A stretch of DNA of 55,508 nt from Planctomycetaceae bacterium (GTDB lineage Bacteria; Planctomycetota; Planctomycetia; Pirellulales; PALSA-1355): contig PLYM01000219.1 of the NCBI GenBank assembly GCA_003153375.1, positions 25,361 to 80,868 of the forward strand, written 5' to 3'. A program made the position numbers and the translations under genes. Under the pieces are notes generated by a model. It made no database searches. It worked only from the letters and a program-made list of their open reading frames with translations, and had not been told where the DNA came from. Positions 14,197 to 36,747 of the stretch are shown one piece after another. How positions within the stretch are numbered: the stretch's first letter is position 1; every line of letters begins with the position of its first letter.

Positions 14197-15022
14197 CGAA
14201 GTTCCGGCGATGTTCGACCTGACCGGCCGGGTGGCCATTCTGACTGGCGGCGCGGGCTTGTTGGGCCGCCAATACACCCGCACGCTGTTGGAGGCCGGGG
14301 CCAGGGTCGTGGTCGCTGATGTGAACGCCGAAATCGCCTGCTCGGCCGCGCAAGCCGCCACGGCCGAAGTGGGGGGCGAGGCCATCGGCTGGGGAATCGA
14401 CGTCCGCCGCAAGGCCGAGGTCGAGAAAATGGTCACCGACGTTCACGAGCGTTACCAGCGCGTCGACATCCTGATCAACAATGCCGCCATCGATCCCAAG
14501 TTCGACGCCGGCACCGCGGCGCGTCAGGCCAACACGTTCGAAGACTATCCGCTCGATCTGTGGCAAGAGTCGTTGGACGTGAACCTGACCGGCGCGTTTC
14601 TGTGCAGCCAGAGCGTTGGCAAAATCATGGTGGCCCAGCAGCGCGGCGCAATCGTCAACATCTGTTCAACCTATGGCGTCGTCGCCCCCGATCAGCGGCT
14701 GTATCAACGCCCCGGCGAGGCAGAGCAAAAGCTGTTCAAGCCGGCGCCCTATTCAGTCACTAAGGCTGGCATTGCCCATCTAACCCGCTATCTGGCGGCC
14801 TACTGGGGCGACAAGGGAATTCGCGTCAACACGCTCACTCCCGGCGGCGTCTACAACTCGCAAGACGATGACTTTGTCACGAAGTACGCCGCGCGCACGC
14901 CCTTGGGTCGGATGGCCCGTCAGAACGAGATGAACGGCGCCATGCTGTTCCTGGTCTCCGATGCTTCGTCCTATATGACCGGCTCGAACCTGGTCGTCGA
15001 CGGAGGCTGGACGGCATGGTGA
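14189..15022 (+). CDS. Short-chain dehydrogenase/reductase
   Basis: A 277-residue classical SDR. The cofactor motif is TGGAGLLG near the N-terminus, followed by NNAA and the catalytic Tyr188/Lys192 pair (YSVTK). The C-terminal segment ends SYMTGSNLVVDGGWTAW, typical of the family. It overlaps the preceding oxidoreductase by 8 bases and the following CMP-sugar synthetase by 7, so translation is probably coupled. SDRs similar in context to PtmA accompany cytidylyltransferases and NeuB-type synthases in nonulosonic-acid loci. A role in making or modifying the sugar precursor is therefore likely, though not shown by sequence alone. Confidence 0.88.
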   Translation: MSNEVPAMFDLTGRVAILTGGAGLLGRQYTRTLLEAGARVVVADVNAEIACSAAQAATAEVGGEAIGWGIDVRRKAEVEKMVTDVHERYQRVDILINNAAIDPKFDAGTAARQANTFEDYPLDLWQESLDVNLTGAFLCSQSVGKIMVAQQRGAIVNICSTYGVVAPDQRLYQRPGEAEQKLFKPAPYSVTKAGIAHLTRYLAAYWGDKGIRVNTLTPGGVYNSQDDDFVTKYAARTPLGRMARQNEMNGAMLFLVSDASSYMTGSNLVVDGGWTAW

Positions 15023-16248
15023 AGCGCCCGGAAATCTTGGCCGTCGTGCAGGCCCGCGGCGGGTCGAAGGGTTTACCCCGCAAAAACCTGCGGTTGCTCG
15101 GCGGTCACCCGTTAGTGGCCTACAGCATCGCCAGCGGCCTGGCGGCCCGCTCGGTCACTCGGGTCATCATGTCGACCGACGACGAAGAAATTGCCCAGGT
15201 CGCGCTACAGTACGGCGCCGAGGTGCCTTTTCTGCGTCCGCCCGAGTTGGCTCGGGACGACACGCTCGACTTTCCGCTGTTCGAGCATGCGATCCGCTGG
15301 CTGGCTGAATCCGAGAATTACCATCCCGACGTGATCGTGCAGTTGCGACCGACCACGCCGCTGCGACCGCGCGGACTAATCGACGAGGCGGTGCGGATTT
15401 TGGAGTCGGATGCGGCCGCCGATTGCGTGCGCGGCGTGACGATTCCCAAGCAAACCCCCTATAAAATGTGGCGCGACGGCGACGACGGCTGTCTGTTGCC
15501 GCTGATGGATACCGCGTTCGCCGAGCCTTTCAACATGCCCCGGCAGCAGTTGCCGATGGCCTACTGGCAAACCGGCCACGTCGACGCGATTCGCACCACG
15601 ACGATCACCAAGAAGGGGTCGCTGACCGGCACCCGGGTGCGGCCGGTGATGGTCGACGGAAACTATTGTGTGGATATCGATACTCTGGTCGATTTTGATC
15701 TGGCCGAGCGGGCCATGCGACAAAAACATCTCGACATCGACGTGCCCCAGGGAGCCGGTGCGCGGACGTTGCGGGCCTGGCCTAAGCAGATCGACCTGCT
15801 GGTATTCGACTTTGACGGTGTGTTTACCGATAATCGAGTCCTTGTTCTCGAGGACGGCCGCGAGGCGGCCTGGTGCAATCGTGGCGATGGGATGGGCTTG
15901 TCGTTGCTGCGAGATACCGGGTTGCCCATGTTCGTGCTGTCGACCGAGGAGAACCCGATCGTCCTGGCACGCTGCCGCAAGCTGCAGTTGGAGTGTCGTC
16001 ACGGTCTGGCCGATAAGCGCGCGGCATTGATTGAGTTGGCACGCGAGAGAAATGTGGACTTGAGCCGCGTCGTCTATGTGGGTAACGACGTAAACGATGT
16101 GGGTTGCATGGAAGCGGCCGGATTTGCGGTGGCCGTGGCCGATGCTCACGGCGAGGCGCTCGCCCGAGCCGACCTGGTGCTTTCGCGACCCGGAGGCCAG
16201 GGCGCCGTGCGGGAATTGTGTGACCTGCTTTTGCAACAAATGAGGTAA
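15016..16248 (+). CDS. CMP-nonulosonate synthetase fused to a KdsC-like HAD phosphatase
   Basis: A 410-residue bifunctional protein. Residues 1 to about 235 form an N-acylneuraminate-type cytidylyltransferase (AVVQARGGSKGLPRKN, then QLRPTTPLR), which would activate a nonulosonic acid with CTP. Residues about 255-410 form a HAD phosphatase with all core motifs: DFDGVFTDN (Asp265 and Asp267), a Ser in VLSTEE, Lys in GLADKRA and GNDVNDVG. A fused, apparently active phosphatase suggests that the synthase product is a 9-phosphate (Kdn-9-P or Neu5Ac-9-P route) that is dephosphorylated before activation. Animal CMAS also carries a C-terminal HAD-like domain. The gene overlaps the SDR and lies 9 bases before neuB. 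Confidence 0.9.
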   Translation: MVKRPEILAVVQARGGSKGLPRKNLRLLGGHPLVAYSIASGLAARSVTRVIMSTDDEEIAQVALQYGAEVPFLRPPELARDDTLDFPLFEHAIRWLAESENYHPDVIVQLRPTTPLRPRGLIDEAVRILESDAAADCVRGVTIPKQTPYKMWRDGDDGCLLPLMDTAFAEPFNMPRQQLPMAYWQTGHVDAIRTTTITKKGSLTGTRVRPVMVDGNYCVDIDTLVDFDLAERAMRQKHLDIDVPQGAGARTLRAWPKQIDLLVFDFDGVFTDNRVLVLEDGREAAWCNRGDGMGLSLLRDTGLPMFVLSTEENPIVLARCRKLQLECRHGLADKRAALIELARERNVDLSRVVYVGNDVNDVGCMEAAGFAVAVADAHGEALARADLVLSRPGGQGAVRELCDLLLQQMR

Positions 16249-16257
16249 AGCGAGATC

Positions 16258-17154
16258 ATGGCACGAATTGTTGAACTCAACGGCCGGCCCACGGGCGATG
16301 GTTGTCCCAACTATGTGATCGCCGAAGTCGGCATCAACCATAACGGCAGCCTTGAGATCGCCAAGCGGCTGATCGACGTGGCCAAGGCCAGCGGCTGCGA
16401 CGCCGTAAAGTTTCAAAAACGCACGCCCGAAAAATGCGTGCCGGCGGAAATGCGCGACAAGATGCGTGAGACCCCCTGGGGTTACATTTCCTATCTGGAG
16501 TATCGCTACAAGGTCGAGTTCGGTCTGGAAGAATTCCAGCAAATCGACAACTACTGCCGGGCCCAGAAGATTGCCTGGTTCGTCTCCTGCTGGGATCCTG
16601 ACTCGGTCGATTTCATCAAGCCGTTCAAAACGCCCTGCATCAAGATTCCCTCGGCGTCGCTCACTGACCGCGAATTGCTCGAATCGATTCGTGACTCGGG
16701 TCACCCGGTGATGCTCTCGACCGGCATGTCGGACATGAATCAAATTCAGGCCGCGGTGAAGTTGCTGGGCACCAAGAACCTGCTGTTGGCTCATGCCACG
16801 AGCACCTACCCATGTCCCAAGGAAGAGCTGAACCTGCGGATGATCACCACGCTGCGAGAGATGTACGATTGTCCGATCGGTTATTCGGGACACGAAGTCG
16901 GTTTGGCGACGACCGTGGCCGCCGTGGCCCTGGGGGCTTGCTTCATCGAGCGGCACATCACGCTCGATCGGGCGATGTGGGGTAGCGATCAGGCGGCGTC
17001 GATCGAGCCGGGTGGCTTGAAACGGCTCGTCAAAGACATTCGCAACGTGGAGACCGCCTTGGGCGATGGCCGCAAACGCGTCTATGACAGCGAAGTGGCG
17101 GCTGCCAGCCGCTTGCGTCTGAAGCAAACCCTGGTCGTGTCGGACAAGAAGTAG
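16258..17154 (+). CDS. neuB: NeuB-family nonulosonate (phosphate) synthase, lacking the usual C-terminal SAF domain
   Basis: A 298-residue TIM-barrel enzyme that condenses PEP with a mannose-type sugar (or its 6-phosphate) to give a nine-carbon acid. Family motifs include AEVGINHNGS near the start, AVKFQKR, CIKIPSAS, MLSTGMSD, IGYSGHEVG and the final barrel segment IERHITLDRAMWGSDQ. The protein ends about 45 residues after that, whereas typical NeuB proteins continue with an antifreeze-like SAF domain that reaches into the partner subunit's active site. That domain is absent here. Together with the fused phosphatase next door this favours a sugar-9-phosphate product, but the exact sugar (Kdn, Neu5Ac-like or another) is not determined. 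Confidence 0.88.
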   Translation: MARIVELNGRPTGDGCPNYVIAEVGINHNGSLEIAKRLIDVAKASGCDAVKFQKRTPEKCVPAEMRDKMRETPWGYISYLEYRYKVEFGLEEFQQIDNYCRAQKIAWFVSCWDPDSVDFIKPFKTPCIKIPSASLTDRELLESIRDSGHPVMLSTGMSDMNQIQAAVKLLGTKNLLLAHATSTYPCPKEELNLRMITTLREMYDCPIGYSGHEVGLATTVAAVALGACFIERHITLDRAMWGSDQAASIEPGGLKRLVKDIRNVETALGDGRKRVYDSEVAAASRLRLKQTLVVSDKK

Positions 17155-24295: not shown

Positions 24296-26035
24296 ATGCT
24301 GTCCAATCAATCAGCAGATATGTCGCTTAAGGCACCAGCCGTTGGCTCACCCACGGTCGAGCAGCCGCAGATTATGGGGCTCGTCGAACAGGTCCAAGCG
24401 ACCGTCCGGCAAACCATCAACTTTTGCGCGCGCGAGAAGTTCTGGCTGACTTGCACGGCCGCAATCGTGCTGATTTGGACCGTCGAACTCTACGCCGTTC
24501 AAGCGCGCACACTCATCTATCCGAATGAGGTGGGTGCACGATTCGCATTTTGGGCGCCCAAGGTCCGGCTAGTGCTTGATTTGCTGTTTATCTCAACGCT
24601 TACGGTTTGGTTTCGGCCGCGCTGGTTGTGCCTGATCATGGTTGGCTCGTTCTTCGCCTACCTGGGGCTTGTCACATACTTCCAATACTTTCAACGCCCC
24701 ATATCCCTGCTGACGATTTTCACCAATTGGCGAGAAGGGATCGAAATCAGCGGCTTTGCGCTCGACATGTTTCCGAAGCGAGCCGTGGTCCTGCTGGCCG
24801 CGGCGTTGGTGGCACAGCTGACAGCGCTGTTTCTGTCGCGCCGGGTCGCCCTGCCGAGGAACTGTGCTCGACTGGGCGCCGCGACGCTGGCCATCGGCTT
24901 CCTCACGCTGTTCGTGGGCCTCAACTTCTGGGACCCTCTGAGCTTTATCCAGACCAAGCGTGGCGTGGGGCGGTTAGGGGCCGTGCGCGGTTATCTTGGC
25001 CCTTGGGCCGCCGAGTGGTACTACCTGCGTGACAGCAAGGTGCTGGGGCAGGCGCTGGATTTGCGAAAGATCAAATACGATCGCCTGACACCCGCCGAGG
25101 CCGACATTCCGATTCACAAACACCTGGTGATCGTGCAGGCCGAGAGCCTCGACTTCAATATCCTCGGTCACATGGTCGACGGTGTGGCGGTCACGCCGTT
25201 CTTGAATCGCCTGCGCGACATTTCGATGTTCTATCGCGTCCGGGCGATGCATTACAACGTTTCCGCCGACGCCGATTTCGTGGCCATGAACGGCGTGTCT
25301 GGCTCGAAGCATGCCAACACCTACATGATCCCAAACTATCCGTATGAGAACACGACGCCCCAATTACTCGCACGGTGCGGTTTCACGGTCTCGAGCTTCC
25401 ATGGCTACAACGGAATGTTCTACCGACGGCGGCCAGCCTTCGAAAAAATGGGCTTCGACCAGATCTACTTTCGCGAGGAATTGGAACGACCGCCGTACAA
25501 TCTGCGGGTCGATCGCTGGGGAGTGCCAGACCGGGACGTGCTGATGCTCTCGGCGCTCAAGATGCGCGGGGCAAAAGAGCCCACTTGCCATTTCGTCATT
25601 ACGCTGACGACGCATACGCCCTACACCATGCTGCAGGCGAGCGAGCGCGAGATTTATCCGAATCCTACCTCGACGCTTGAACACTATATGAACAATATGC
25701 GGTATCTGGATAACTGCCTGCGCGACTACTTTACGGCGCTGGGCAGCGGTACCACGGTGATGCTCTATGCGGATCATCCCACGGAGCAGAGCTGTGCGGG
25801 GGGGGATTTCGCGCCTGACCGATCGGATGGCCGCGAATATATTCCCGTGTTCATCTACGATACGGATCAGGACTTGAGTAAACTGCAAAAGACGCGCAAG
25901 AGCCCGCTCCGCCGCGATGGGAGTTTGAACCTGGTTGACATGATTAACTATCTTCGAGGGCAGGTGGAGTTGGCCTATGGAACGGATTCGGCCGAAGCGG
26001 CGGATCGTCCTCAGGCGGCCCAAACGCCTCCGTGA
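24296..26035 (+). CDS. LtaS/OpgB-like membrane phosphoglycerol transferase (sulfatase fold)
   Basis: A 579-residue protein with about five hydrophobic segments (residues about 50-215) followed by an extracytoplasmic alkaline-phosphatase-like domain. Compared with lipoteichoic acid synthase, the metal ligands are kept: Glu in VQAESLDF (about 283), His440 in TLTTHTPY and Asp493-His494 in YADHPTE. The segment that carries the catalytic Thr of LtaS aligns as NVSADADF, so the nucleophile appears to be Ser (about 323). The predicted activity is transfer of a phosphoglycerol or related phospho-group from a lipid to the glycan on the periplasmic side. An ATG at 24320 is an alternative start. Confidence 0.82.
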   Translation: MLSNQSADMSLKAPAVGSPTVEQPQIMGLVEQVQATVRQTINFCAREKFWLTCTAAIVLIWTVELYAVQARTLIYPNEVGARFAFWAPKVRLVLDLLFISTLTVWFRPRWLCLIMVGSFFAYLGLVTYFQYFQRPISLLTIFTNWREGIEISGFALDMFPKRAVVLLAAALVAQLTALFLSRRVALPRNCARLGAATLAIGFLTLFVGLNFWDPLSFIQTKRGVGRLGAVRGYLGPWAAEWYYLRDSKVLGQALDLRKIKYDRLTPAEADIPIHKHLVIVQAESLDFNILGHMVDGVAVTPFLNRLRDISMFYRVRAMHYNVSADADFVAMNGVSGSKHANTYMIPNYPYENTTPQLLARCGFTVSSFHGYNGMFYRRRPAFEKMGFDQIYFREELERPPYNLRVDRWGVPDRDVLMLSALKMRGAKEPTCHFVITLTTHTPYTMLQASEREIYPNPTSTLEHYMNNMRYLDNCLRDYFTALGSGTTVMLYADHPTEQSCAGGDFAPDRSDGREYIPVFIYDTDQDLSKLQKTRKSPLRRDGSLNLVDMINYLRGQVELAYGTDSAEAADRPQAAQTPP

Positions 26036-26129
26036 CGCCGCGGATTCGGTGTGACTGGCATAACAGGATCGCGCGGCCCTGCTGCGTGCGATCTATGACG
26101 AATCGTTCACTCCCCCTGTTGGCCGTTCA

Positions 26130-26158
26130 TTGCAGCCCTCGGCGGGCCGGACTATAAG
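26130..26158 (+). promoter_or_regulatory. Candidate sigma-70 promoter of the sugar-activation cassette
   Basis: TTGCAG at 26130-26135 and TATAAG at 26153-26158 are separated by exactly 17 bases, within a 180-bp gap free of genes. Transcription would start near 26165, about 50 bases before the GTG at 26216. This would make the cassette at 26216-29795 independently transcribed. Confidence 0.45.
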
Positions 26159-26215
26159 AGAAGGTGTTGCAGCACCGCCTTTCACATCGCCGTAGATTCA
26201 CCCCATCCACGTTCC

Positions 26216-26974
26216 GTGGCGATCAACGACGCTAATCCTGATCTGAATGCACCGCGTCTGACCCTGATTTTTCCCATGGCTGGGCGGGGCGAGCGATTCG
26301 GCACCACGTTTAAGCCCTTCTTGCAAATCGGCGACCAGGCGTTTATTGAAGCCGCGGTCGAGCCCTTCCGCAAATGGCGGTCGGCCATTTCGAACATCGT
26401 GTTTGTGTTTCTTCGCCAACAGGACGTCGACTTCTCCGTGACTAGCCGGCTCGAAAAGATGTTTGACGGGTTGCCCTGGCAGGCGGCGCTGCTGCCGCTT
26501 CCCACAGCCGGTCCCGCCGAGACCGTGGCCGGCGGTGTCGAGCAGGCGGGCGTCCAAGGCCCGGCGATTATATGCGACTGTGATCATGCGGTGAACGTCG
26601 ATCCGATCTTTGAAATGTTTCTGGCCGGCCTGGCGGGCGACTGCGTGTTGCCGGTTTGGGACCTGGCGGGCGAAGAGCTTAAGTCGTGGAGCGTCGCGGC
26701 AATTGCCGACGATGGTACGGTCGACGCCATTGCCGAAAAGGCCGCTCCGCCCGGCGCCCGGCGGACCGCGGGCGTGATCGGATGTTATTACTTCGCGGAC
26801 GTGGCCCGAGCGGCCGCGATCTGCCGTGAGCAGGCCTACCTGGTTATCTCTGAAGTCGTGGCCGACCTCATTCGGCAAGGAGCGCGAGTGAACTCGGTGC
26901 CGATTAGCGAGGCGCGATTCTTCGGCGACCCGGCGCGGCTGGCCAAGGCGGCAAAGTCTTCCGCCGGCAATTGA
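26216..26974 (+). CDS. Sugar nucleotidyltransferase (NTP_transferase family)
   Basis: A 252-residue GT-A-fold nucleotidyltransferase. The signature loop is intact (FPMAGRGERFG, then KPF), with the metal-binding Asp pair in CDCDHAVNVDP and a later GCYYFADV strand. It should join an NTP to a sugar phosphate or a similar phosphate ester. It is clearly paralogous to the first domain of the protein encoded at 27714: both share SGPAI/QGPAI..CD.DH, LKSWS, GVIGCYYFAD and EFFGD/RFFGD blocks. The start is a GTG at 26216. The sugar and base are not predictable. Confidence 0.82.
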   Translation: MAINDANPDLNAPRLTLIFPMAGRGERFGTTFKPFLQIGDQAFIEAAVEPFRKWRSAISNIVFVFLRQQDVDFSVTSRLEKMFDGLPWQAALLPLPTAGPAETVAGGVEQAGVQGPAIICDCDHAVNVDPIFEMFLAGLAGDCVLPVWDLAGEELKSWSVAAIADDGTVDAIAEKAAPPGARRTAGVIGCYYFADVARAAAICREQAYLVISEVVADLIRQGARVNSVPISEARFFGDPARLAKAAKSSAGN

Positions 26975-27006
26975 TCAATACCCAAACGGAAGTGGAAAAC
27001 CGTTCC

Positions 27007-27717
27007 ATGGATTTACTGCGAAATATCAAAGTCTTTGCCGACGGCGCCGTAACCCGCCAGGTTCCGGAATTGATCGCGAAGCACAAGGTCAGTGGCTTCA
27101 CCACGAACCCCACGTTGATGGCCAAGGAAGGCATCCGCGACTATCAGGGCTTCGCCAAGGAACTATTGTCGGTCGTGGGCGGCCGCCCGGTCTCCTTCGA
27201 GGTCTTTGCCGACGACCTCGAGGAAATGCGCCGCCAGGCGATGACGCTGGCCGGCTGGGGCGACAATGTCTATGTGAAGATTCCCATCACGAATACCCAA
27301 GGCGAGTCGACCGCGGGTCTGGTCAAGTCGTTGTCCGCCTCGGGAGTCAAGCTCAATGTCACGGCCGTCTTCACGCCCGAGCAGATTCGAGGGCTGGCTC
27401 GCTGTTTTGATACCGGCACGCCCGCCGTGGTTTCGATCTTCGCCGGGCGTATTGCCGACGCCGGCATCGATCCCTCTTCCATCATCCAAGGCGCTCTCGA
27501 TCAGTTCAAAGCGCAGCCGCACGTCGAAGTGCTGTGGGCTAGCGTTCGCGAGATTTTCAACGTGGTGAATGCCGCCACGGTCGGCTGCCACATCGTCACC
27601 GTGCCGATCGCCATGCTCGACAAGTTGAGCTCCCTGGGCAAGGATCTCACCGAGTTCTCGTTGGACACGGTCAAGATGTTCCGGACCGACGCCCTGGCTT
27701 CAAAACTGAGTCTATGA
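27007..27717 (+). CDS. Transaldolase / fructose-6-phosphate-aldolase-like enzyme
   Basis: A 236-residue class I aldolase of the small transaldolase family. The Schiff-base lysine lies in VYVKIPITN (residue 91 from the ATG at 27007), preceded by the family opening FADGAV and GFTTNPTLMAKEG. Late barrel segments VSIFAGRIADAG and VLWASVREIFNV are typical. An upstream in-frame TTG at 26971 would overlap the previous stop as TTGA and add 12 unrelated residues; the ATG matches the family N-terminus better. It sits between two nucleotidyltransferase genes, so it probably makes or rearranges a sugar phosphate for activation rather than serving central metabolism. Its stop overlaps the next gene as ATGA. 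Confidence 0.85.
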   Translation: MDLLRNIKVFADGAVTRQVPELIAKHKVSGFTTNPTLMAKEGIRDYQGFAKELLSVVGGRPVSFEVFADDLEEMRRQAMTLAGWGDNVYVKIPITNTQGESTAGLVKSLSASGVKLNVTAVFTPEQIRGLARCFDTGTPAVVSIFAGRIADAGIDPSSIIQGALDQFKAQPHVEVLWASVREIFNVVNAATVGCHIVTVPIAMLDKLSSLGKDLTEFSLDTVKMFRTDALASKLSL

Positions 27718-29795
27718 AGCGCTCTGGCCCACCGCCGGTGACCGTGATCTTCCCGATGGCGGGTCAGGCTGCGCACGCGGGTTACAAATTCAAACCGTTC
27801 GTCGAGTTGAGCGACGAACCGGTGATCGCGGCCGTCGTACGCCCGTTCCTCAAGTGGCAAGCGTCCATCGCGCGCTTCGTGTTCGTCACCCTGGCCGAAC
27901 ACGAGGCCGAGTTCGCGGTGCGAAAGCGTCTCGAAGAAATCTTTCCCGACTTGAAGTTCGACCTGGTCTGTCTGGATCGTCCCACGCAAGGGCCCGCCCA
28001 GACGTTGGCCATGGCCGTCGGCCGCCACGAAATTAGCGGTCCCGCGATCGTTTGCGACAGCGACCACTCGATTGACGTCGATCCCTTGTTCCAGGAAATC
28101 CACGCGGCACACGCCGAGAGCTGCTTGTTTCCGATTTGGAGCCTGCGCGGCGAGAATCTGAAATCGTGGAGCATCGCTGCCTGCGCCGCCGACATGCGTG
28201 TGACGGCGATTGCCGAAAAAGAGCTGCCCGCAGCGAGCGGCGATTTCTTTGGCGTTATTGGTTGTTACTACTTTGCCGATATTGTCGCCACGGCCCAACT
28301 GGTGCATAGTCGTTCGTTTGGCTATCTGTCGCAAGCGATCAAGGAATTGATCGTGGGCGGCCAATGCGTGCGCGCGGTGAAGATCGACCGGGCCGAGTTT
28401 TTCGGCGATGCCCGCGGACTGCGCGAGGCCCGCGCCCGTCGCGACCGGTTTCCGGGCACGATCTTTTGCGACCTCGACGGCACCGTGATCGAACACCAAG
28501 ACGTGCCGCGCTACGATCGGCCCTTGCAGTTGCTCGAAGGGAGCAAGGAAAAGCTGGCGCAGTGGATCGACGAGGGTTATCTGGTCGTCTTGACTACGGC
28601 TCGTCCGCTGGCCGAACAGCCGCAGTTGGAGCAGGCCTTGCGCGATCAGGGTGTGCCGTTTCACCGCTTGAACATGGGGTTGCCCAGCGGGCCGCGCTAT
28701 ATCATCAACGATCGCAAGCCGTCGGCGATGCTGGTGCCGCAAGTCGTCTCTTACGAAGTGTCGCGCAACGAAGGCATCACGCACATTACGATTCCGTCGG
28801 TGGTGCCGACGATCCTCAAACGCTTCAACGGCGCGTCGTTCGCGGACACTCTCTTAGTCGAGGACGACGAAAAGCGATTCGTGCGGAAGCGGGTGCTCAA
28901 ACGCGATCACCTGACGTTGGGTTATGCCAAGCTCAAGAACCAATATCGCACGCTGGAACGATTCTCGCACTTTGCCGAAATCGTACCGGCTCTGTACGGC
29001 GACCATGACAACTCGCTGGAGTATTTCTTCGACATGGAGTATCTCGCCGGACATCAGCCGTTGACGCGGCTGAGCGCCGTCGAGTTGCCCCAGGCGCTGG
29101 CCAAGCTGTTGGGCGTATTCCAAGAGCGCGTCTACGGGGTCAAGACTTCGACCAACGCGTCGGGGCCCGACTGGCTGATCAGCCATTTCTCGCGGAAGAT
29201 CTTTCCCAAGTTGGAAGCCGTGCAAACGCACCCGGTGTTGGGACGGTTGGTCGACGGGGGCGAAATCCGCATCGGCGATAAGACCTATCCGGCACTTAAC
29301 ACGCTGCTGTCATCGGTGATCGAGGGGCATGGCGCCCAAGTATTGGCGCCCAAGTGGCTGTCGGCGATCCACGGCGATTTGACGTTCGAAAACGTCCTCT
29401 ATCGCGGCGGTGACGTGCGCGTGATCGACATGGACGGCGGCGATTTTCTCGACGCGCCTGAGCTCGACATGGGCAAGCTGTTTCAGTCGCTCGTGGGCCG
29501 CTACGAGGAGTGGGCCCACGTCGACGCCAAGCTGTGCGAACAGTCGCCCGATGGACACATCACGCTCAAGCCGAACCTGCAACGGCCCGACCCGGCCGTC
29601 GAACAATTGTGCGTCGACTATTGGTCCCAGATCCTCTCCTGCTCGCCGGAACAGGCCTATGTGAAAGGTCTGTTTTACATGGGGTTGCATTTGATTCGCA
29701 TGATTCCATTCCGGCTGCGAGTCAGCGAAGAGCAGGCTTTCTTTGCCTTGGCGTTGGCGGTCAAATGGATTGGCGATGCCCACGAGTCGCTGTGA
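27714..29795 (+). CDS. Three-domain nucleotidyltransferase-HAD phosphatase-kinase fusion
   Basis: A 693-residue protein with three enzyme domains. Residues 1 to about 240 are a sugar nucleotidyltransferase paralogous to the gene at 26216; its metal Asp residues remain (CDSDHSIDVDP) but the signature loop has changed to FPMAGQAAHAGYKFKPF, losing the usual Gly-x-Arg. Residues about 247-380 are a HAD phosphatase (FCDLDGTVIEHQ at about 250, LTTARP, INDRKPSA). Residues about 400-690 are a kinase of the aminoglycoside/choline phosphotransferase type, with HGDLTFENV at about 551 and VIDMDGGDF at about 568. The kinase, phosphatase and nucleotidyltransferase set parallels the three steps of NDP-heptose synthesis (1-phosphorylation, removal of the 7-phosphate, nucleotidyl transfer). 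Whether the order and substrate are the same is unknown. It overlaps the transaldolase-like gene by ATGA. Confidence 0.85.
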   Translation: MKRSGPPPVTVIFPMAGQAAHAGYKFKPFVELSDEPVIAAVVRPFLKWQASIARFVFVTLAEHEAEFAVRKRLEEIFPDLKFDLVCLDRPTQGPAQTLAMAVGRHEISGPAIVCDSDHSIDVDPLFQEIHAAHAESCLFPIWSLRGENLKSWSIAACAADMRVTAIAEKELPAASGDFFGVIGCYYFADIVATAQLVHSRSFGYLSQAIKELIVGGQCVRAVKIDRAEFFGDARGLREARARRDRFPGTIFCDLDGTVIEHQDVPRYDRPLQLLEGSKEKLAQWIDEGYLVVLTTARPLAEQPQLEQALRDQGVPFHRLNMGLPSGPRYIINDRKPSAMLVPQVVSYEVSRNEGITHITIPSVVPTILKRFNGASFADTLLVEDDEKRFVRKRVLKRDHLTLGYAKLKNQYRTLERFSHFAEIVPALYGDHDNSLEYFFDMEYLAGHQPLTRLSAVELPQALAKLLGVFQERVYGVKTSTNASGPDWLISHFSRKIFPKLEAVQTHPVLGRLVDGGEIRIGDKTYPALNTLLSSVIEGHGAQVLAPKWLSAIHGDLTFENVLYRGGDVRVIDMDGGDFLDAPELDMGKLFQSLVGRYEEWAHVDAKLCEQSPDGHITLKPNLQRPDPAVEQLCVDYWSQILSCSPEQAYVKGLFYMGLHLIRMIPFRLRVSEEQAFFALALAVKWIGDAHESL

Positions 29796-29886
29796 CGAGC
29801 CGCCGCGCGCTCCAATCCGACCGGGCTCGGTTGCCGGTCCTTTTCGGTCTAACCTTTCGCTCGATCCCGGAACTCCACCGGTATTT

Positions 29887-31158
29887 GTGAATTCGAACTC
29901 CGCTCCATCCGCCGCGCCGCTGCCCAAGATGGTGCTGCACGTCCTCAACTCGCCCACCGGCGGCGCCGCCCTGAGCACGCTGGGGCTGATCGCCGAATTC
30001 AAACGGCGGGGCATTCGCTCCTGTGCAGTGTGCGACACGGCCGGGTACGAGGCGGACCAGAAAGTATTGTCGGACGCCGTCGAGGGCCGATCGCTGGCCA
30101 CGAAACTCTATTGGACCAACCGTAAGATTCGCAGCGCCCCGTGGAAACGGCCGATTCACGAAGTGCGGCAACTGTTGCAAACCGGCTTCCAGCGGGGATC
30201 GACCGGCAAGGTCGTTGAATCGGCCCGCCGTTGGGGTGCTGACTTGATCCACACCAACACGATCGTGACTTCCGAGGGCGCGCTGGCTGCCCGGCAACTG
30301 GGCTTGCCCCATGTCTGGCACGTGCGCGAACTGGTGGGGCCGGGGCAACCGACCCGACTTCCCTTCGAAGGCGCAAAATTCGCCCCTTTCATGACGCGCT
30401 ATTGCTCCAAGCTGATCGCCAACTCCCACGCCTGCGCTGCGCTCGTTCGCGACATCGCTCCGCCCGGCATGCTGGAAGTGGTGCCCAACGGCATCGACCT
30501 TTCGCGATTTACTCCTCGCGGCCAGTACCAGCGGCCCGGCAAAATCGTGGTTGCCATGGTTGCCAGCCTGACCAGTCGGGTCAAGAAACACTCGCTGTTC
30601 GTCGAGGCGGCCGCTCTGGTGGACCGCAGCCTGCCGATTGAATGGCGCATTTATGGTCACGATCCGTCACGGGGTGGCACGGTGCCGGCCGATGCCTACA
30701 TTGCCGAAATTCACGCACGAATCGCCCGAGCCGGGCTGCGTGATCGCTTCGCGTGGCCGGGGTTTGTCGAAGATCCCCGCGCGATCATGTCCGATATCGA
30801 TCTGCTGGTGCATCCGGCCGACGAGGAGTCGTTTGGGCGCGTGGTAGTCGAAGCCATGGCCGCGGGCTTGCCGGCCATCGGCGTTCGAGGCGGTGGAGTC
30901 GGCGAGATCATCCGCGACGGCGAGACCGGCTATCTGGCTGATCCCGACAACGCGCGACAACTGGCCACCGGCATCCAACGACTGGTCTCGAATGCCGAGT
31001 CGCGCCAATCAATGGGATTGGCAGGGCGGCAGCGGGCCGAGTCCACTTATTCCTTGGAAGCCTGCGCGACCGGCGTCGCGCGGGTCTACGAAATGGCGAT
31101 GCTCCGCCCACTGGCCGCGGCCACTTCGGACCGATCGCGCGCCGCGGTCAGTTCCTAA
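29887..31158 (+). CDS. GT4-family glycosyltransferase
   Basis: A 423-residue GT-B glycosyltransferase. The N-terminal half has HVLNSPTGGAALSTLGLI and HVWHVRELVGPGQPTRLP; the C-terminal half has VVPNGIDLSRF and the retaining-enzyme EX7E motif in EESFGRVVVEAMAAG. The GTG at 29887 is the proposed start; an ATG at 29929 is also possible, and the ORF extension to 29743 overlaps the previous gene and is not family-like. It should transfer a hexose-type sugar to the growing lipid-linked chain in the cytoplasm. Confidence 0.87.
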   Translation: MNSNSAPSAAPLPKMVLHVLNSPTGGAALSTLGLIAEFKRRGIRSCAVCDTAGYEADQKVLSDAVEGRSLATKLYWTNRKIRSAPWKRPIHEVRQLLQTGFQRGSTGKVVESARRWGADLIHTNTIVTSEGALAARQLGLPHVWHVRELVGPGQPTRLPFEGAKFAPFMTRYCSKLIANSHACAALVRDIAPPGMLEVVPNGIDLSRFTPRGQYQRPGKIVVAMVASLTSRVKKHSLFVEAAALVDRSLPIEWRIYGHDPSRGGTVPADAYIAEIHARIARAGLRDRFAWPGFVEDPRAIMSDIDLLVHPADEESFGRVVVEAMAAGLPAIGVRGGGVGEIIRDGETGYLADPDNARQLATGIQRLVSNAESRQSMGLAGRQRAESTYSLEACATGVARVYEMAMLRPLAAATSDRSRAAVSS

Positions 31159-31175: not shown

Positions 31176-32237
31176 ATGAAGTTTTCGATTTGCATTCCGA
31201 ACTACAACTACGCTCGCTACTTGGGCCGGACGATTCAGAGTGTACTGAATCAGCAGGATGCCGAATTCGAGGTGCTAGTCTCCGACAACGCCAGCACCGA
31301 CGGTTCCCCCGACGTGGTGCGCAAACTGGGCGACTCGCGCATTCATTTGCACGAGAATGTCTGCAATGTCGGTTTTTCCGGCAACCTGGATCGCGCGGCT
31401 CGCATGGCGACCGGCGAGTGTATGATCATGCTCTCCTCCGATGACCTGATGCGCGCGGGCGCCTTGTCGGCCTATCGCAAGCTGTGGCAGCATCTGGGCC
31501 CGCGTGGCGCGACGGCAATCGCCAGCGCCAGTTTTGACGTGGTCGACGCCGACGACCAGATCACGGGCTACCTGGGTCCCGATAAAACTCTTTGGACCGA
31601 ATCCGACCGGCTACCCGAGTTGGAGAAGATTCTCGGCGCTCCGGTTTATGGCGTGCCGGCCGGCGAGTTGCTCCGGCGCTGCTTACCGCAGATGAAGAAC
31701 CCGTTTAACTTTGCCGCCACCTGCTATGCGTCGGATCTTTATTGTCGTGTCGAAGGCTACGGCGGCGGGCGCCTGATCAATCCCGACAAATGGTTTCATT
31801 GGAAGGTGCTGGGCGCTGCCGAGATGGCCTACTTCGTCGATGAGAAGCTGTTCGCCTATCGCTGGCACAGCAGCAATCAGGGATCTCAGGAAAACGCGAC
31901 GGGGGCCCTGAAGTACATGGTCGATGAATATGTCTCGACGCTGGAGCTGGACGGCATGGTGCTGGAGAAGATCGGCCTGACCCGCGAAGCCGTCGCGATG
32001 TGGTTCGTCGAGAACGATGTCGCTCGTCATGGCCTCTCCACGCTGGCCCGCGGCGGCCGGGTCAAGGCGCGACGCATTCTCAATTTCGGCCGGGCGGTTT
32101 ATCCGCAGTATGTGCGGCGGAATCCCAAGGCGTGGGCCCTGGCGTTCTTGCTGGCTCTGGGACCGGCCGGACAAAAGTTTGCCCAGCATGCCTATAGGTC
32201 CTATAGCCAGGACAACCCGCCAGCCCCCCAACATTGA
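31176..32237 (+). CDS. GT2-family glycosyltransferase
   Basis: A 353-residue GT-A inverting glycosyltransferase with the classic opening FSICIPNYNYARYLGRTIQS, the VSDNASTDGS loop and an acidic SSDDLM motif that should bind the metal and nucleotide sugar. It starts 17 bases after the preceding GT4 gene. Donor and acceptor are not predictable. Confidence 0.87.
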   Translation: MKFSICIPNYNYARYLGRTIQSVLNQQDAEFEVLVSDNASTDGSPDVVRKLGDSRIHLHENVCNVGFSGNLDRAARMATGECMIMLSSDDLMRAGALSAYRKLWQHLGPRGATAIASASFDVVDADDQITGYLGPDKTLWTESDRLPELEKILGAPVYGVPAGELLRRCLPQMKNPFNFAATCYASDLYCRVEGYGGGRLINPDKWFHWKVLGAAEMAYFVDEKLFAYRWHSSNQGSQENATGALKYMVDEYVSTLELDGMVLEKIGLTREAVAMWFVENDVARHGLSTLARGGRVKARRILNFGRAVYPQYVRRNPKAWALAFLLALGPAGQKFAQHAYRSYSQDNPPAPQH

Positions 32238-32345: not shown

Positions 32346-32392
32346 AACGGTAACAGTTGTCCGCGGCACCGCCCGCGATCGAATCGCCCCTA

Positions 32393-33748
32393 ATGTCCCA
32401 CCATCTCCCTGTCACGAACGCAATGAGCACGCGGCCCGCCACGCCACTGGGTCCGGTCCTTCTGACGATGGGTCAGCGGCCTGTCACGCAACAGCAATTG
32501 GCGATCGCCGGCATGACGGTGACCGGTGTGCTGCTGTTCTTGATCGGCTTCTTGGTCGTCGGTTCAGGCTATTCGATGTTGCGGCCCAAGTTCATCGGCC
32601 TCTCGCTGCATCCCTACTTGCTTCCGGTCGCTGTCGCCTTCCCGCTGGTGCTGATGTCTCGGATGCACATGTTTCCGCTCCGGATTGGGGTGTCGATTCT
32701 GGTTTTTGTCAGCACCTATTGCTTTTCGGCGCTTAATGGCGGATTGAATCCGCTCGGAGAGGTGTTCAAGGTCGCCTCGGCCGTGATCTCGATCATCGTC
32801 TGCGCGCTGCTGGTCCGTCGTCGGGGCGACTTCGTGGCCGGGGCGCTGGGATTGGCGATTGCCGTGGCGGCGTTGGGCATGCGCGGATTGCAACCCGCGC
32901 AGATGGCCTCGGGCGAGATCATGGATGGGGCCAACAAGAACTCCTACTCGATTTTCGCGTTGCCTGCCATTTTGCTGGCCGGGTTCATCGTTTTGCATTT
33001 CAAGACGGTACCAAAAATCGTCAAGGCGGCTCTAATCGTTTGTATTTTGCCCGCGTTGGCGGTGATCTTCATGGGAGGCAATCGTTCCGGCTATTTGGGG
33101 GCCGTGATCGTGGGGGCCATGCTTTTTTGGGACCAGCGGGGCAAGGGCCTGCTGCTCGTCGGCGGCATTGTGGCGGTGGTCGCCGTGGGCATTGCCGAGT
33201 ATGGCTCGACCAAGATTCTGAACGAGCGACTGAAGCAAACCGTCGAAGGCAATCGGTCCGACAACATTCGCCGCGACATCGTGATTGCCTGTGCGGAAAT
33301 TGCCTTAGAGAACCCGATCATCGGAGTTGGTCCACAGAGGCTACCGCTCGAAATTGCGAACCGTCTGCCGTATGCCACCGTCGGATACGTCGAGGCGCAC
33401 AACGTGTTCGCGCATGTGATGGCCGGCAGCGGGCTGATTTGCTTTGGTGCTTTGCTGGCCGCGGGCTGGACGTTGTGCACGTGGCGGCCGCGTGGCGGTG
33501 GCACGATTGGAGGCAAGGAGGATCCCTTGAGCCAAGCCCGAAAGTTGATGCGGATGTTGATCATCCTTTGGATCGCGCGAGGACTCTTTACCCCCGAGAT
33601 TATTTACAACCCCGCGTTTGACATCTCGATTGGGTTGGTGATCGGATACTGCATGTTGGCGGATCGGGCGGGCGCCGAAGCGCGACTGGCCAGTCCGCGT
33701 AGTCGACCCGCTCCCCCTGCTCTTGGCGGGCTTGCGGCGAGCCATTAG
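32393..33748 (+). CDS. O-antigen polymerase/ligase-like membrane protein (Wzy/WaaL family)
   Basis: A 451-residue protein with about ten or more hydrophobic segments. The large periplasmic-loop signature of the Wzy_C family is visible as NPIIGVGPQRLPLE followed by EAHNVFAHVMAGSGLICFG. It would polymerise lipid-linked repeat units or ligate the glycan to its carrier after flipping. The ATG at 32393 is chosen over a TTG at 32357. It follows a gap that may hold a promoter. Confidence 0.85.
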   Translation: MSHHLPVTNAMSTRPATPLGPVLLTMGQRPVTQQQLAIAGMTVTGVLLFLIGFLVVGSGYSMLRPKFIGLSLHPYLLPVAVAFPLVLMSRMHMFPLRIGVSILVFVSTYCFSALNGGLNPLGEVFKVASAVISIIVCALLVRRRGDFVAGALGLAIAVAALGMRGLQPAQMASGEIMDGANKNSYSIFALPAILLAGFIVLHFKTVPKIVKAALIVCILPALAVIFMGGNRSGYLGAVIVGAMLFWDQRGKGLLLVGGIVAVVAVGIAEYGSTKILNERLKQTVEGNRSDNIRRDIVIACAEIALENPIIGVGPQRLPLEIANRLPYATVGYVEAHNVFAHVMAGSGLICFGALLAAGWTLCTWRPRGGGTIGGKEDPLSQARKLMRMLIILWIARGLFTPEIIYNPAFDISIGLVIGYCMLADRAGAEARLASPRSRPAPPALGGLAASH

Positions 33749-35052: not shown

Positions 35053-36747
35053 ATGAGTGAACTGATTCTTGCTGTTCGTTCGGGCCACAATGCCAGCGCC
35101 TGCATCGGCGATCGGTCCAAGGTGCTGTTCGCGATTCAAGAGGAGCGGCTGAATCGGGAGAAGAACTATTGGGGATTTCCGGCGCTGTCAATCCACGCCT
35201 GCCTGGAAGCCGTGGGTGCGTCGATCAAGGACCTGGCGGCCGTCGTCTGTCCTGAGCGCTGGATTCTGTCGAAGTATCATAGCCGCGAGGACATCCTCAA
35301 CGCCTATCGCCGGCACGGCACGCTGGTGGGCCGCTTGCGGCAGCGCGTGGCCGTGCCTTTGGTGCTGACCCTGCGACCCAACTATGGCGAAACCGAATTT
35401 CGCGCCTTGCTGGCCGATCAAGGCTTGGGCAACGTGCCGCTTTCGATCTACGATCACCACACGGCCCACGCCGCCACGGCCTATTACGGTCTGCGGGCCA
35501 ACCCGAATAAAAAGTACCTCGTGTTCACCTGCGACGGATCGGGCGATGGTTTGTGCGCCACGGTGCGCGTGATGGGTGGCGGAGAGGAACAAATGGTGGC
35601 CACCACGCCGATGAGCGATACGCTGGGCGCCGTTTATGCCTGGGTGACGTACGCCATGGGCTTCTTGCCGATGGAGCACGAGTACAAGCTCATGGGCATG
35701 GCCCCTTACGCCTCGGAATCGGCCACGTTGGAAGCGGCCAAGATGTTCGAGGCGTATCTCGGTCTGACGCCCAACGGCTTGAGCTTTCAGCGGCGGATTC
35801 GCGAGAAGATTTCCGATTTCAGTGATCGGCTATTCCGCGATATGAAGGGCCGTCGCTTCGACTACATCTGCGCCGGCTTGCAACGGTTCACCGAGGATTT
35901 GCTGGTCAATTGGACCGCCTGCGCCGTGAAAGAGACCGGCGTGCGCGACGTGTTGGTCGCCGGCGGTGTCTTCATGAACGTCAAAGCCAACAAGCGGATT
36001 GCCGAACTGCCGGAAGTCACGTCGTTTGAGGCGTTTCCCTCGTGCAGTGACGAGACGCTGACGTTCGGCGGTTATTATCTCGAGGCGGCCAAGCGATTCG
36101 GTGACGCCAAGGTCGAGCCGCTCTCGAATTTCTATCTCGGCGATGACATCCGCGACGAAGACGCGTTGCAGACGATCAAGGCCTCGGGACTGAAGTATCA
36201 CCGCCCCGAAGACATGGCCGGCGAAGTGGCCGACCTGCTGATTTCTGGCCAGCCCGTGGCGCGCTGCGCCGGTCCGATGGAATTTGGCGCGCGCGCCCTT
36301 GGCAATCGCTCGATCCTGGCCGATCCGAGCAACCAGGATGTCGTGCGTGTGATCAATCAAATGGTCAAGAAGCGCGACTTCTGGATGCCGTTCGCACCCG
36401 TCGTGCTCGAAAGCCGCCAGCACGAGTACCTGGTGAACCCGAAGAACCTGCGCAGCCCGTACATGATGATGACGTTTGATACCAAGGAGAATTTCCGCGA
36501 CCTGATCGCGGCGGTGCATAACGCCGATCTGACCTGTCGGGCTCAGTTGCTCAACGAACTGATCAATCCCGAGCTGTATCGCATTCTCAAGTCGTTCGAG
36601 CAGAAGACCTCGCGAGGCGTGCTGCTCAACACGTCGTTCAATCTGCACGGCTGGCCGATTGTGCGCACGCCGCAGGACGCCATCGACGTATTGAACAATT
36701 CCGGACTGAACTACCTGCAGGTGGGCAATTACCTGGTACATAAGTAA
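35053..36747 (+). CDS. NodU/CmcH-family carbamoyltransferase
   Basis: A 564-residue enzyme that would carbamoylate a hydroxyl of a sugar using carbamoyl phosphate and ATP. The N-terminal Kae1-like domain contains SGHNASAC, the metal-binding DHHTAHAATAYYG and FTCDGSGDG. The C-terminal YrdC-like half contains PMEFGARALGNRSILADP, WMPFAPVV and LLNTSFNLHGWPIV, all hallmarks of NodU, TobZ and relatives. The length is normal for the family. It points to a carbamoylated residue in the glycan. Confidence 0.92.
   Translation: MSELILAVRSGHNASACIGDRSKVLFAIQEERLNREKNYWGFPALSIHACLEAVGASIKDLAAVVCPERWILSKYHSREDILNAYRRHGTLVGRLRQRVAVPLVLTLRPNYGETEFRALLADQGLGNVPLSIYDHHTAHAATAYYGLRANPNKKYLVFTCDGSGDGLCATVRVMGGGEEQMVATTPMSDTLGAVYAWVTYAMGFLPMEHEYKLMGMAPYASESATLEAAKMFEAYLGLTPNGLSFQRRIREKISDFSDRLFRDMKGRRFDYICAGLQRFTEDLLVNWTACAVKETGVRDVLVAGGVFMNVKANKRIAELPEVTSFEAFPSCSDETLTFGGYYLEAAKRFGDAKVEPLSNFYLGDDIRDEDALQTIKASGLKYHRPEDMAGEVADLLISGQPVARCAGPMEFGARALGNRSILADPSNQDVVRVINQMVKKRDFWMPFAPVVLESRQHEYLVNPKNLRSPYMMMTFDTKENFRDLIAAVHNADLTCRAQLLNELINPELYRILKSFEQKTSRGVLLNTSFNLHGWPIVRTPQDAIDVLNNSGLNYLQVGNYLVHK

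Follow-up and report, generated by a model that had tools for sequence, protein, structure and literature searches.

A transaldolase beside a nucleotidyltransferase-HAD-kinase fusion: a probable rare-sugar cassette in a planctomycete polysaccharide locus and on viral contigs

In the MupP-AmgK-MurU system a HAD phosphatase, an APH-family anomeric kinase and a nucleotidyltransferase (NTase) act in sequence. The cassettes for nucleoside diphosphate (NDP) heptose, which comprise GmhA, HddA or HldE, GmhB and HddC, apply a kinase, a phosphatase and an NTase to a product of the pentose phosphate pathway. MupP-AmgK-MurU belongs to the recycling of peptidoglycan sugars (PMC5371407). An NTase that acts on a ketose phosphate for capsule synthesis has also been described, the CDP-6-fructose cytidylyltransferase HS5.18/Mnp1 (PMC10918830). 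The subject of this report is a three-gene cassette in a 55,508-nucleotide stretch of DNA from Planctomycetaceae bacterium (GCA_003153375.1, contig PLYM01000219.1, positions 25,361 to 80,868 of the forward strand), the whole of which is called the window and which forms part of contig C81 in the genome labelled G000. The cassette joins a transaldolase to an NTase-HAD-kinase chain and probably builds and activates a rare sugar for a surface polysaccharide. An earlier note on this DNA had described three adjacent genes for an NTase, a transaldolase and a 693-residue fusion, and the open reading frames (ORFs), families and folds bear this out:

26216..26974, + strand: separate NTase P0001, 252 residues; ORF, NTP_transf_3 match, signature GRGERFG...FKP intact
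26971..27717, + strand: transaldolase P0002, 248 residues; ORF, TAL_FSA and TIGR02134 matches, Lys103, Glu77 and Phe157 present
27714..29795, + strand: fusion P0003, 693 residues, with NTase-like, HAD and APH-type kinase domains; ORF, domain families, full-length relatives
27732..28439, + strand: NTase-like domain of P0003; fold of a sugar-1-phosphate NTase, with His at the position of the signature Arg (GQAAHAG)
28455..28799, + strand: HAD phosphatase domain of P0003; D253, D255, T295, N332 and D333 invariant
28806..29795, + strand: APH-type kinase domain of P0003; K392, D555, N560 and D572 invariant, fold matches

The three genes overlap end to end on the same strand, and the overlap noted earlier at 27714 is real (ATG/TGA, 27714-27717 in the ORF list), while the start of P0002 may be the ATG at 27007, later than the TTG. 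In its enzyme classes and apparent logic the cassette resembles MupP-AmgK-MurU, and its kinase has an APH fold (Z 16-19), but that system consists of separate genes, acts on another sugar and includes no transaldolase, and neither P0001 nor P0003 has an NCBIfam MurU or MupP match at E 0.01. The resemblance to NDP-heptose cassettes likewise lies in the combination of enzyme classes. Here, by contrast, there is no GmhA-type gene, the kinase is APH-type by Pfam and fold rather than GHMP or PfkB, no HddA-profile match occurs in the window or the fusion loci, and the domains form one fused chain. Lacking an isomerase and a heptose-type kinase, this is not a standard NDP-heptose cassette. No published description of the unit, its product or a close pathway was found in a search of titles and the starts of abstracts, with subscription journals mostly outside its coverage.

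The domain order and the neighbouring transaldolase, whose conservation the earlier note had set out as support for its proposal, both recur. Genome G018, of the same order and another family, also has all three genes, arranged identically in a syntenic locus, at 51, 67 and 64% identity. With the window and ten viral groups, full-length fusions form 12 groups at 90% identity. The viral members (28-42% identity) come from two alignment-based scans of viral contigs, one with two fusions and two NTase-HAD proteins as queries (A3) and one with eight fusions (A5), the transaldolase being in neither; each covers the best 80 of more than 480 confirmed matches, with flanks of at most 4-5 kb, some of them cut. 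Exact-peptide scans with P0003 returned no relative in the genome or the viral contigs, where the alignment-based viral scans did find matches. The idea that the fusion is an isolated accident was rejected on the strength of its recurrence in G018 and the ten viral groups. Full-length fusions are nevertheless rare in cells: of the 296 genomes sampled from the order and the 297 from the class, two overlapping sets, G000 and G018 alone have one, and of the 392 from the phylum, a sample that evidently lacks G018 and overlaps the others, G000 alone does. They are absent from the phage and plasmid records searched.

A transaldolase gene overlaps the fusion or lies within 18 bases of it in 12/12 groups, upstream in some and downstream in others. 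By individual rows it stands beside 22 of 24 fusions; in the other two (L212 and L223) the contig breaks off on the side where the rest of the group has the gene. A first tally, of 80 viral loci together with L104, L019, L017 and the window, found a transaldolase in 8/8 full-fusion loci and 0/76 others. A second tally, of 79 rows, drew largely on the same contigs: of its 17 best rows 16 are full fusions, and none of the 62 lower rows has a transaldolase; the 17th best, L224, is a split form with the same four functions, in the order HAD, transaldolase, NTase-kinase. The talC genes of viruses are commonly taken to serve carbon metabolism, and the two viral transaldolases examined (L131 and L128) fall in the PHROG 440 transaldolase family, both of which would suit a carbon-supply gene merely sitting beside an unrelated sugar-activating fusion. 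Its presence in every fusion group, on either side and mostly overlapping, and in none of the 76 comparison loci, renders this explanation highly improbable. The involvement of two transaldolase subfamilies argues in the same direction: TIGR02134 is the best fit for the transaldolases of the window, L131, L132 and L224, and FSA/TalC for that of L128, which suggests more than one recruitment.

The enzymatic character of P0003 was assessed from models and conserved residues. In its AlphaFold model (mean pLDDT 81, with a full-model fold list that covers mainly the NTase part) the N-terminal domain best matches 4evw_A (Z 22.8, rmsd 2.5, 213 residues aligned). The kinase domain modelled alone has a mean pLDDT of 91; its fold matches are nearly tied at Z 16-19 and include fructosamine-3-kinase (FN3K; Z 18.6, rmsd 3.5, 250 aligned), methylthioribose kinase (18.0), maltokinase (17.7), LicA and APH enzymes, and in Foldseek methylthioribose kinase comes first and N-acetylhexosamine 1-kinase eighth. 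Models and fold searches support both domains, and point to a kinase of the APH/fructosamine-kinase/methylthioribose-kinase type. Several of the fold-matching kinases phosphorylate an anomeric hydroxyl. The ATP-binding and catalytic residues K392, D555, N560 and D572 are invariant in 18/18 aligned kinases, so that the loss of ATP-binding residues, named earlier as a potential objection, is not seen. The HAD domain is assigned from its invariant motifs (D253, D255, T295, N332 and D333 in 8/8 fusions), and its short length suggests that it is probably capless; the best NCBIfam match is HAD-SF-IIIA (7.4e-4, under the cut-off), GmhB-type enzymes being HAD-IIIA 7-phosphatases. The HAD part of one viral fusion (L131:3983-6064) matches PHROG 1238, labelled 'phosphoheptose isomerase' (1.9e-11), a label that may stem from other members of that family.

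Two NTases with different signatures are present in the cassette. P0001 matches NTP_transf_3 above the Pfam cut-off (4e-7), is 44% identical to the N-terminal domain of P0003 and retains the G-x-x-x-R signature with K-P (GRGERFG..FKP), as does its G018 orthologue (GRGARFG). The fused copy is broken in both bacterial fusions, with His in place of Arg (GQAAHAG in the window, GQSAHEG in G018). Among the 17 top viral rows, the 15 that are full fusions with a legible motif (L208-L211 and L213-L223) all keep the Arg, and so does each of the other NTase frames compared bar one of two adjacent frames in L022. That locus (L022:1405-3654, in G532) places an intact GRGQRF frame and a signature-less GSDQAF frame side by side. 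The change to His was seen solely in the two bacterial fusions, each accompanied by a separate intact NTase. Since both these fusions have His at the signature Arg and the separate copies have Arg, the P0001-type enzyme is probably the working catalyst in the window and G018, and the fused copy probably is not. The activating role that the earlier note implied for the fused NTase domain is accordingly not supported here.

The third member of the cassette, P0002, is a clear member of its family (TAL_FSA, 1.4e-38), scoring 301.4 bits against the TIGR02134 transaldolase model, for which the NCBIfam equivalog cut-off is 281.95. K103 is invariant in 10/10 aligned sequences and Phe157 in the aligned transaldolases, and E77 and F157 align with the Glu and Phe of the T. 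maritima and T. acidophilum chains. Glu and Phe at these positions are transaldolase-type residues, Gln and Tyr being FSA-type. The Glu77 position holds Glu in the window, G018, L128-L130 and L224. Because the genome of the window contains two further transaldolase-family genes elsewhere (G018 has one), the cassette gene is probably an extra, pathway-specific copy.

Among the best 80 named relatives of P0002, at least one heptose-type gene lies within 5 kb of the transaldolase in 60/80 loci, at least two in 43/80 and at least three in 27/80, and a GmhB-type HAD directly adjoins it in 33/80. The 80 loci (L023-L102) come from many bacterial phyla and some archaeal metagenome-assembled genomes. 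Supply of sedoheptulose 7-phosphate (S7P) may be the best common denominator of the family. P0002 belongs to TIGR02134 by score, yet stands beside NTase, HAD and kinase genes that are not of the GmhA/GmhB type. A tree of the family, built with 40 of the 80 bacterial rows, has little deep resolution. Its three rows marked 'canonical' were the longest stop-to-stop frames of one strand, probably not the transaldolase frame; they sit on very long branches, and their placement is meaningless.

Taken as a pathway-dedicated unit, for which we estimate a probability of about 0.65, the cassette would make a ketose phosphate with its transaldolase, dephosphorylate it, rephosphorylate it and convert it to an NDP-sugar. 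The transaldolase would take a dihydroxyacetone unit off fructose 6-phosphate and add it to an aldose phosphate, erythrose 4-phosphate being the likeliest, so that a ketose phosphate forms, most likely S7P; the HAD domain would remove the terminal phosphate and the APH-fold kinase domain phosphorylate another position, most likely the anomeric hydroxyl, before an NTase coupled the sugar phosphate to a nucleotide, and glycosyltransferases of the locus would use the product. In the viral fusions with an intact NTase signature, one chain could perform the last three steps, whereas in the window and G018 the separate NTase may have taken over catalysis and left the fused copy as a partner or scaffold. 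We infer the reactions, their order and the product from sequence; gene content, domain order, residue conservation, the adjacency of the transaldolase and the differing modules in the same slot (below) are directly observed.

The absence of an isomerase from the cassette implies either that the ketose would be activated directly or that an isomerase encoded far away, for instance by the SIS gene of contig C92, intervenes. Under the former, S7P made by the transaldolase would lose its C7 phosphate and be phosphorylated at the anomeric C2, to yield NDP-sedoheptulose for surface glycans; this specific route is judged unlikely, and we know of no precedent for a donor of this type. The latter corresponds to an NDP-heptose variant, in which an unlinked GmhA-like enzyme isomerises S7P and the cassette replaces HddA/HldE, GmhB and HddC on the way to NDP-glycero-manno-heptose. 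The proximity of the transaldolase family to GmhA-, GmhB-, HddA- and HddC-type genes is in its favour, as are HAD relatives found with a GmhA-like SIS and a split transketolase (L142 and L185) or with an SIS and an HddA-like kinase (L169), and the genome does hold a single, unlinked SIS_2 gene, that on C92. However, this gene adjoins an apparent sugar kinase, which we take to be ROK-type, neither the window nor the flanks fetched for the fusion loci contain a GmhA-profile match, and no SIS protein is present among 30 Pfam-scanned window proteins; this variant is somewhat unlikely. The heptose idea of the earlier note is therefore carried forward in part, as a hypothesis: the transaldolase family is linked to heptose-type genes, but the cassette has neither an isomerase nor a kinase of the NDP-heptose families.

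A further alternative is a polyol or open-chain route, like that from CDP-6-fructose to CDP-6-glucitol, in which the NTase attaches cytidine triphosphate (CTP) at the terminal phosphate of a ketose phosphate, with the kinase and the HAD adjusting the phosphates of another substrate. Formation of CDP-6-fructose from fructose 6-phosphate and CTP is demonstrated for HS5.18 (PMC10918830), the LtaS-like gene adjoining the cassette is compatible with such a product, and P0001 has a weak IspD-type similarity, far under the cut-off in both cases (TIGR00453, 3.1e-4; Pfam IspD, 0.0057). HS5.18 is paired with a reductase, HS5.17, and the pair as described includes no HAD, kinase or transaldolase (PMC10918830). 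In the window no NAD(P)-dependent reductase is adjacent, the SDR and epimerase genes being more than 8 kb away, and among 10 viral loci an SDR/epimerase-like gene directly adjoins the unit only in L224, with others a few kb off in L132 and L214. Such a route has no need of the HAD or the kinase, and is quite improbable.

Several observations weigh against the pathway-dedicated reading, beginning with the missing isomerase itself. Gln occupies the Glu77 position in five viral transaldolases (L131-L133 in the alignment, L214 and L218 by eye), and these may catalyse another reaction, which slightly lowers confidence both in this reading and in NDP-sedoheptulose. The Fisher value of 2.3e-11 for the transaldolase-fusion association in the first tally overstates independence, as the rows are related by descent; flanks of the comparison loci reach 4-5 kb at most, and some are cut; and the viral status of most contigs is that given by the collection, with a terminase on L130 and a phage-type exonuclease on L128. 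The cassette's NTase, HAD and kinase are near none of the best 80 transaldolase relatives, so that the link runs from fusion to transaldolase and not the reverse. Of those 80 loci, 20 have no heptose-type gene within 5 kb, some of them on short contigs, and representatives of the heptose-type clusters match the NCBIfam heptose models mostly under their cut-offs. The APH, HAD-type and NTP_transf_3 family scores of P0003 are weak, each under its curated cut-off, and choline and aminoglycoside kinases score equal to sugar kinases in the fold search. Finally, groups L214, L217, L218 and L221 carry a further NTase of a different type nearby while their fused signature is intact, and a second NTase alone therefore cannot explain the loss of the signature.

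A long polysaccharide locus surrounds the three-gene set, which is flanked by an LtaS-like gene upstream and a GT4/GT2/Wzy/GT4 series downstream:

24296..26035, + strand: LtaS-like sulfatase-fold protein, upstream flank; family match, also in G001, G034 and G018
29743..31158, + strand: GT4 glycosyltransferase, downstream flank, conserved next to the slot; its ORF overlaps the last bases of the fusion gene
31176..32237, + strand: GT2 glycosyltransferase, downstream flank; family match
32357..33748, + strand: Wzy/O-antigen-ligase-like protein, downstream flank; family match

The true start of the GT4 gene is probably later than that of its ORF. Directly upstream of this conserved GT4, five relatives carry a different module: in G001 (same genus), G002 and G003 (same family), and G034 and G039 (same order), the slot is occupied by an NTase-kinase fusion, a small HAD and an intact NTase. 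The signature of the NTase-kinase fusion looks degenerate by eye in all five, and no transaldolase was found in the stretches fetched from them. The pairing of an intact NTase with a signature-broken one thus seems to recur in this locus. Identities of the window's flanking genes to G001 and G018, respectively, are 59 and 45% for the LtaS-like protein, 60 and 49% for GT4, 69 and 61% for GT2 and 56 and 39% for Wzy, whereas the cassette genes are 51-67% identical to those of G018 and match the other five genomes at 26% or less, or not at all. Because the flanks are closer to the same-genus G001 while the cassette is closer to G018, it appears on balance that the cassette has been exchanged as a block between related loci. 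The second GT4 (33797) breaks this pattern, at 35-36% identity to G001 and G002, 58% to G018 and 68% to G003, and the stretches fetched from G002, G003 and G039 lack the LtaS-like gene.

There are other ARRANGEMENTS of the same parts. A kinase and an NTase-HAD protein are neighbours in G031, in the marine virus AG-345-E15 and on viral contigs, and Bacillus phage G has a kinase-like frame, an HAD and an NTase consecutively as gp311-310-309 (HAD and NTase as annotated, gp311 by similarity). These sets and those of the same-order genomes share the three domain types with the cassette, at about 16-28% identity in the NTase-HAD and kinase parts, but have other domain orders and no transaldolase found nearby. 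Viral contigs L142 (3995-8356) and L185 (1-4351) group a kinase, which in L142 is fused to an NTase, with a GmhA-like SIS, the two halves of a transketolase and an HAD of the same family. Transketolase is likewise a carbon-transfer enzyme of the pentose phosphate pathway, and the group is possibly a transketolase counterpart of the transaldolase unit. A uridine-kinase-like/HAD fusion adjoining an NTase (L018:6960-8769, in G020) joins another kinase fold to a similar HAD.

Elsewhere in the window, a CTP-transferase/HAD fusion (15016-16248) adjoins a NeuB-family synthase (16258-17154), the pair probably representing a nonulosonic-acid pathway within the same locus. A carbamoyltransferase with NodU similarity (35053-36747) also lies inside the polysaccharide locus; G001 and G002 have counterparts, as does G018 as far as its fetched stretch reaches. 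The earlier suggestion of a stand-alone unit with its own promoter is not supported, as the cassette is a block inside this long locus and the promoter is not above chance: the candidate at 26130 (TTGCAG-17-TATAAG) has 8/12 consensus bases by eye, under the scan threshold of 9, and a scan of 25900-30200 gave one site, on the opposite strand, where shuffled sequences yield 0.9.

These results turn an odd fusion into a recurrent and testable unit, a transaldolase with an NTase-HAD-kinase chain, found in bacteria and on viral contigs, and the viral form, with its two genes, is compact enough for one-pot enzyme assays. If the pathway-dedicated reading is correct, the cassette would be a compact route of four activities from a ketose of the pentose phosphate pathway to an activated sugar, a tie between TIGR02134 transaldolases and the supply of heptoses would be suggested across many bacterial phyla and in some archaea, and some viral transaldolases would serve the synthesis of sugar nucleotides and not host carbon flow.

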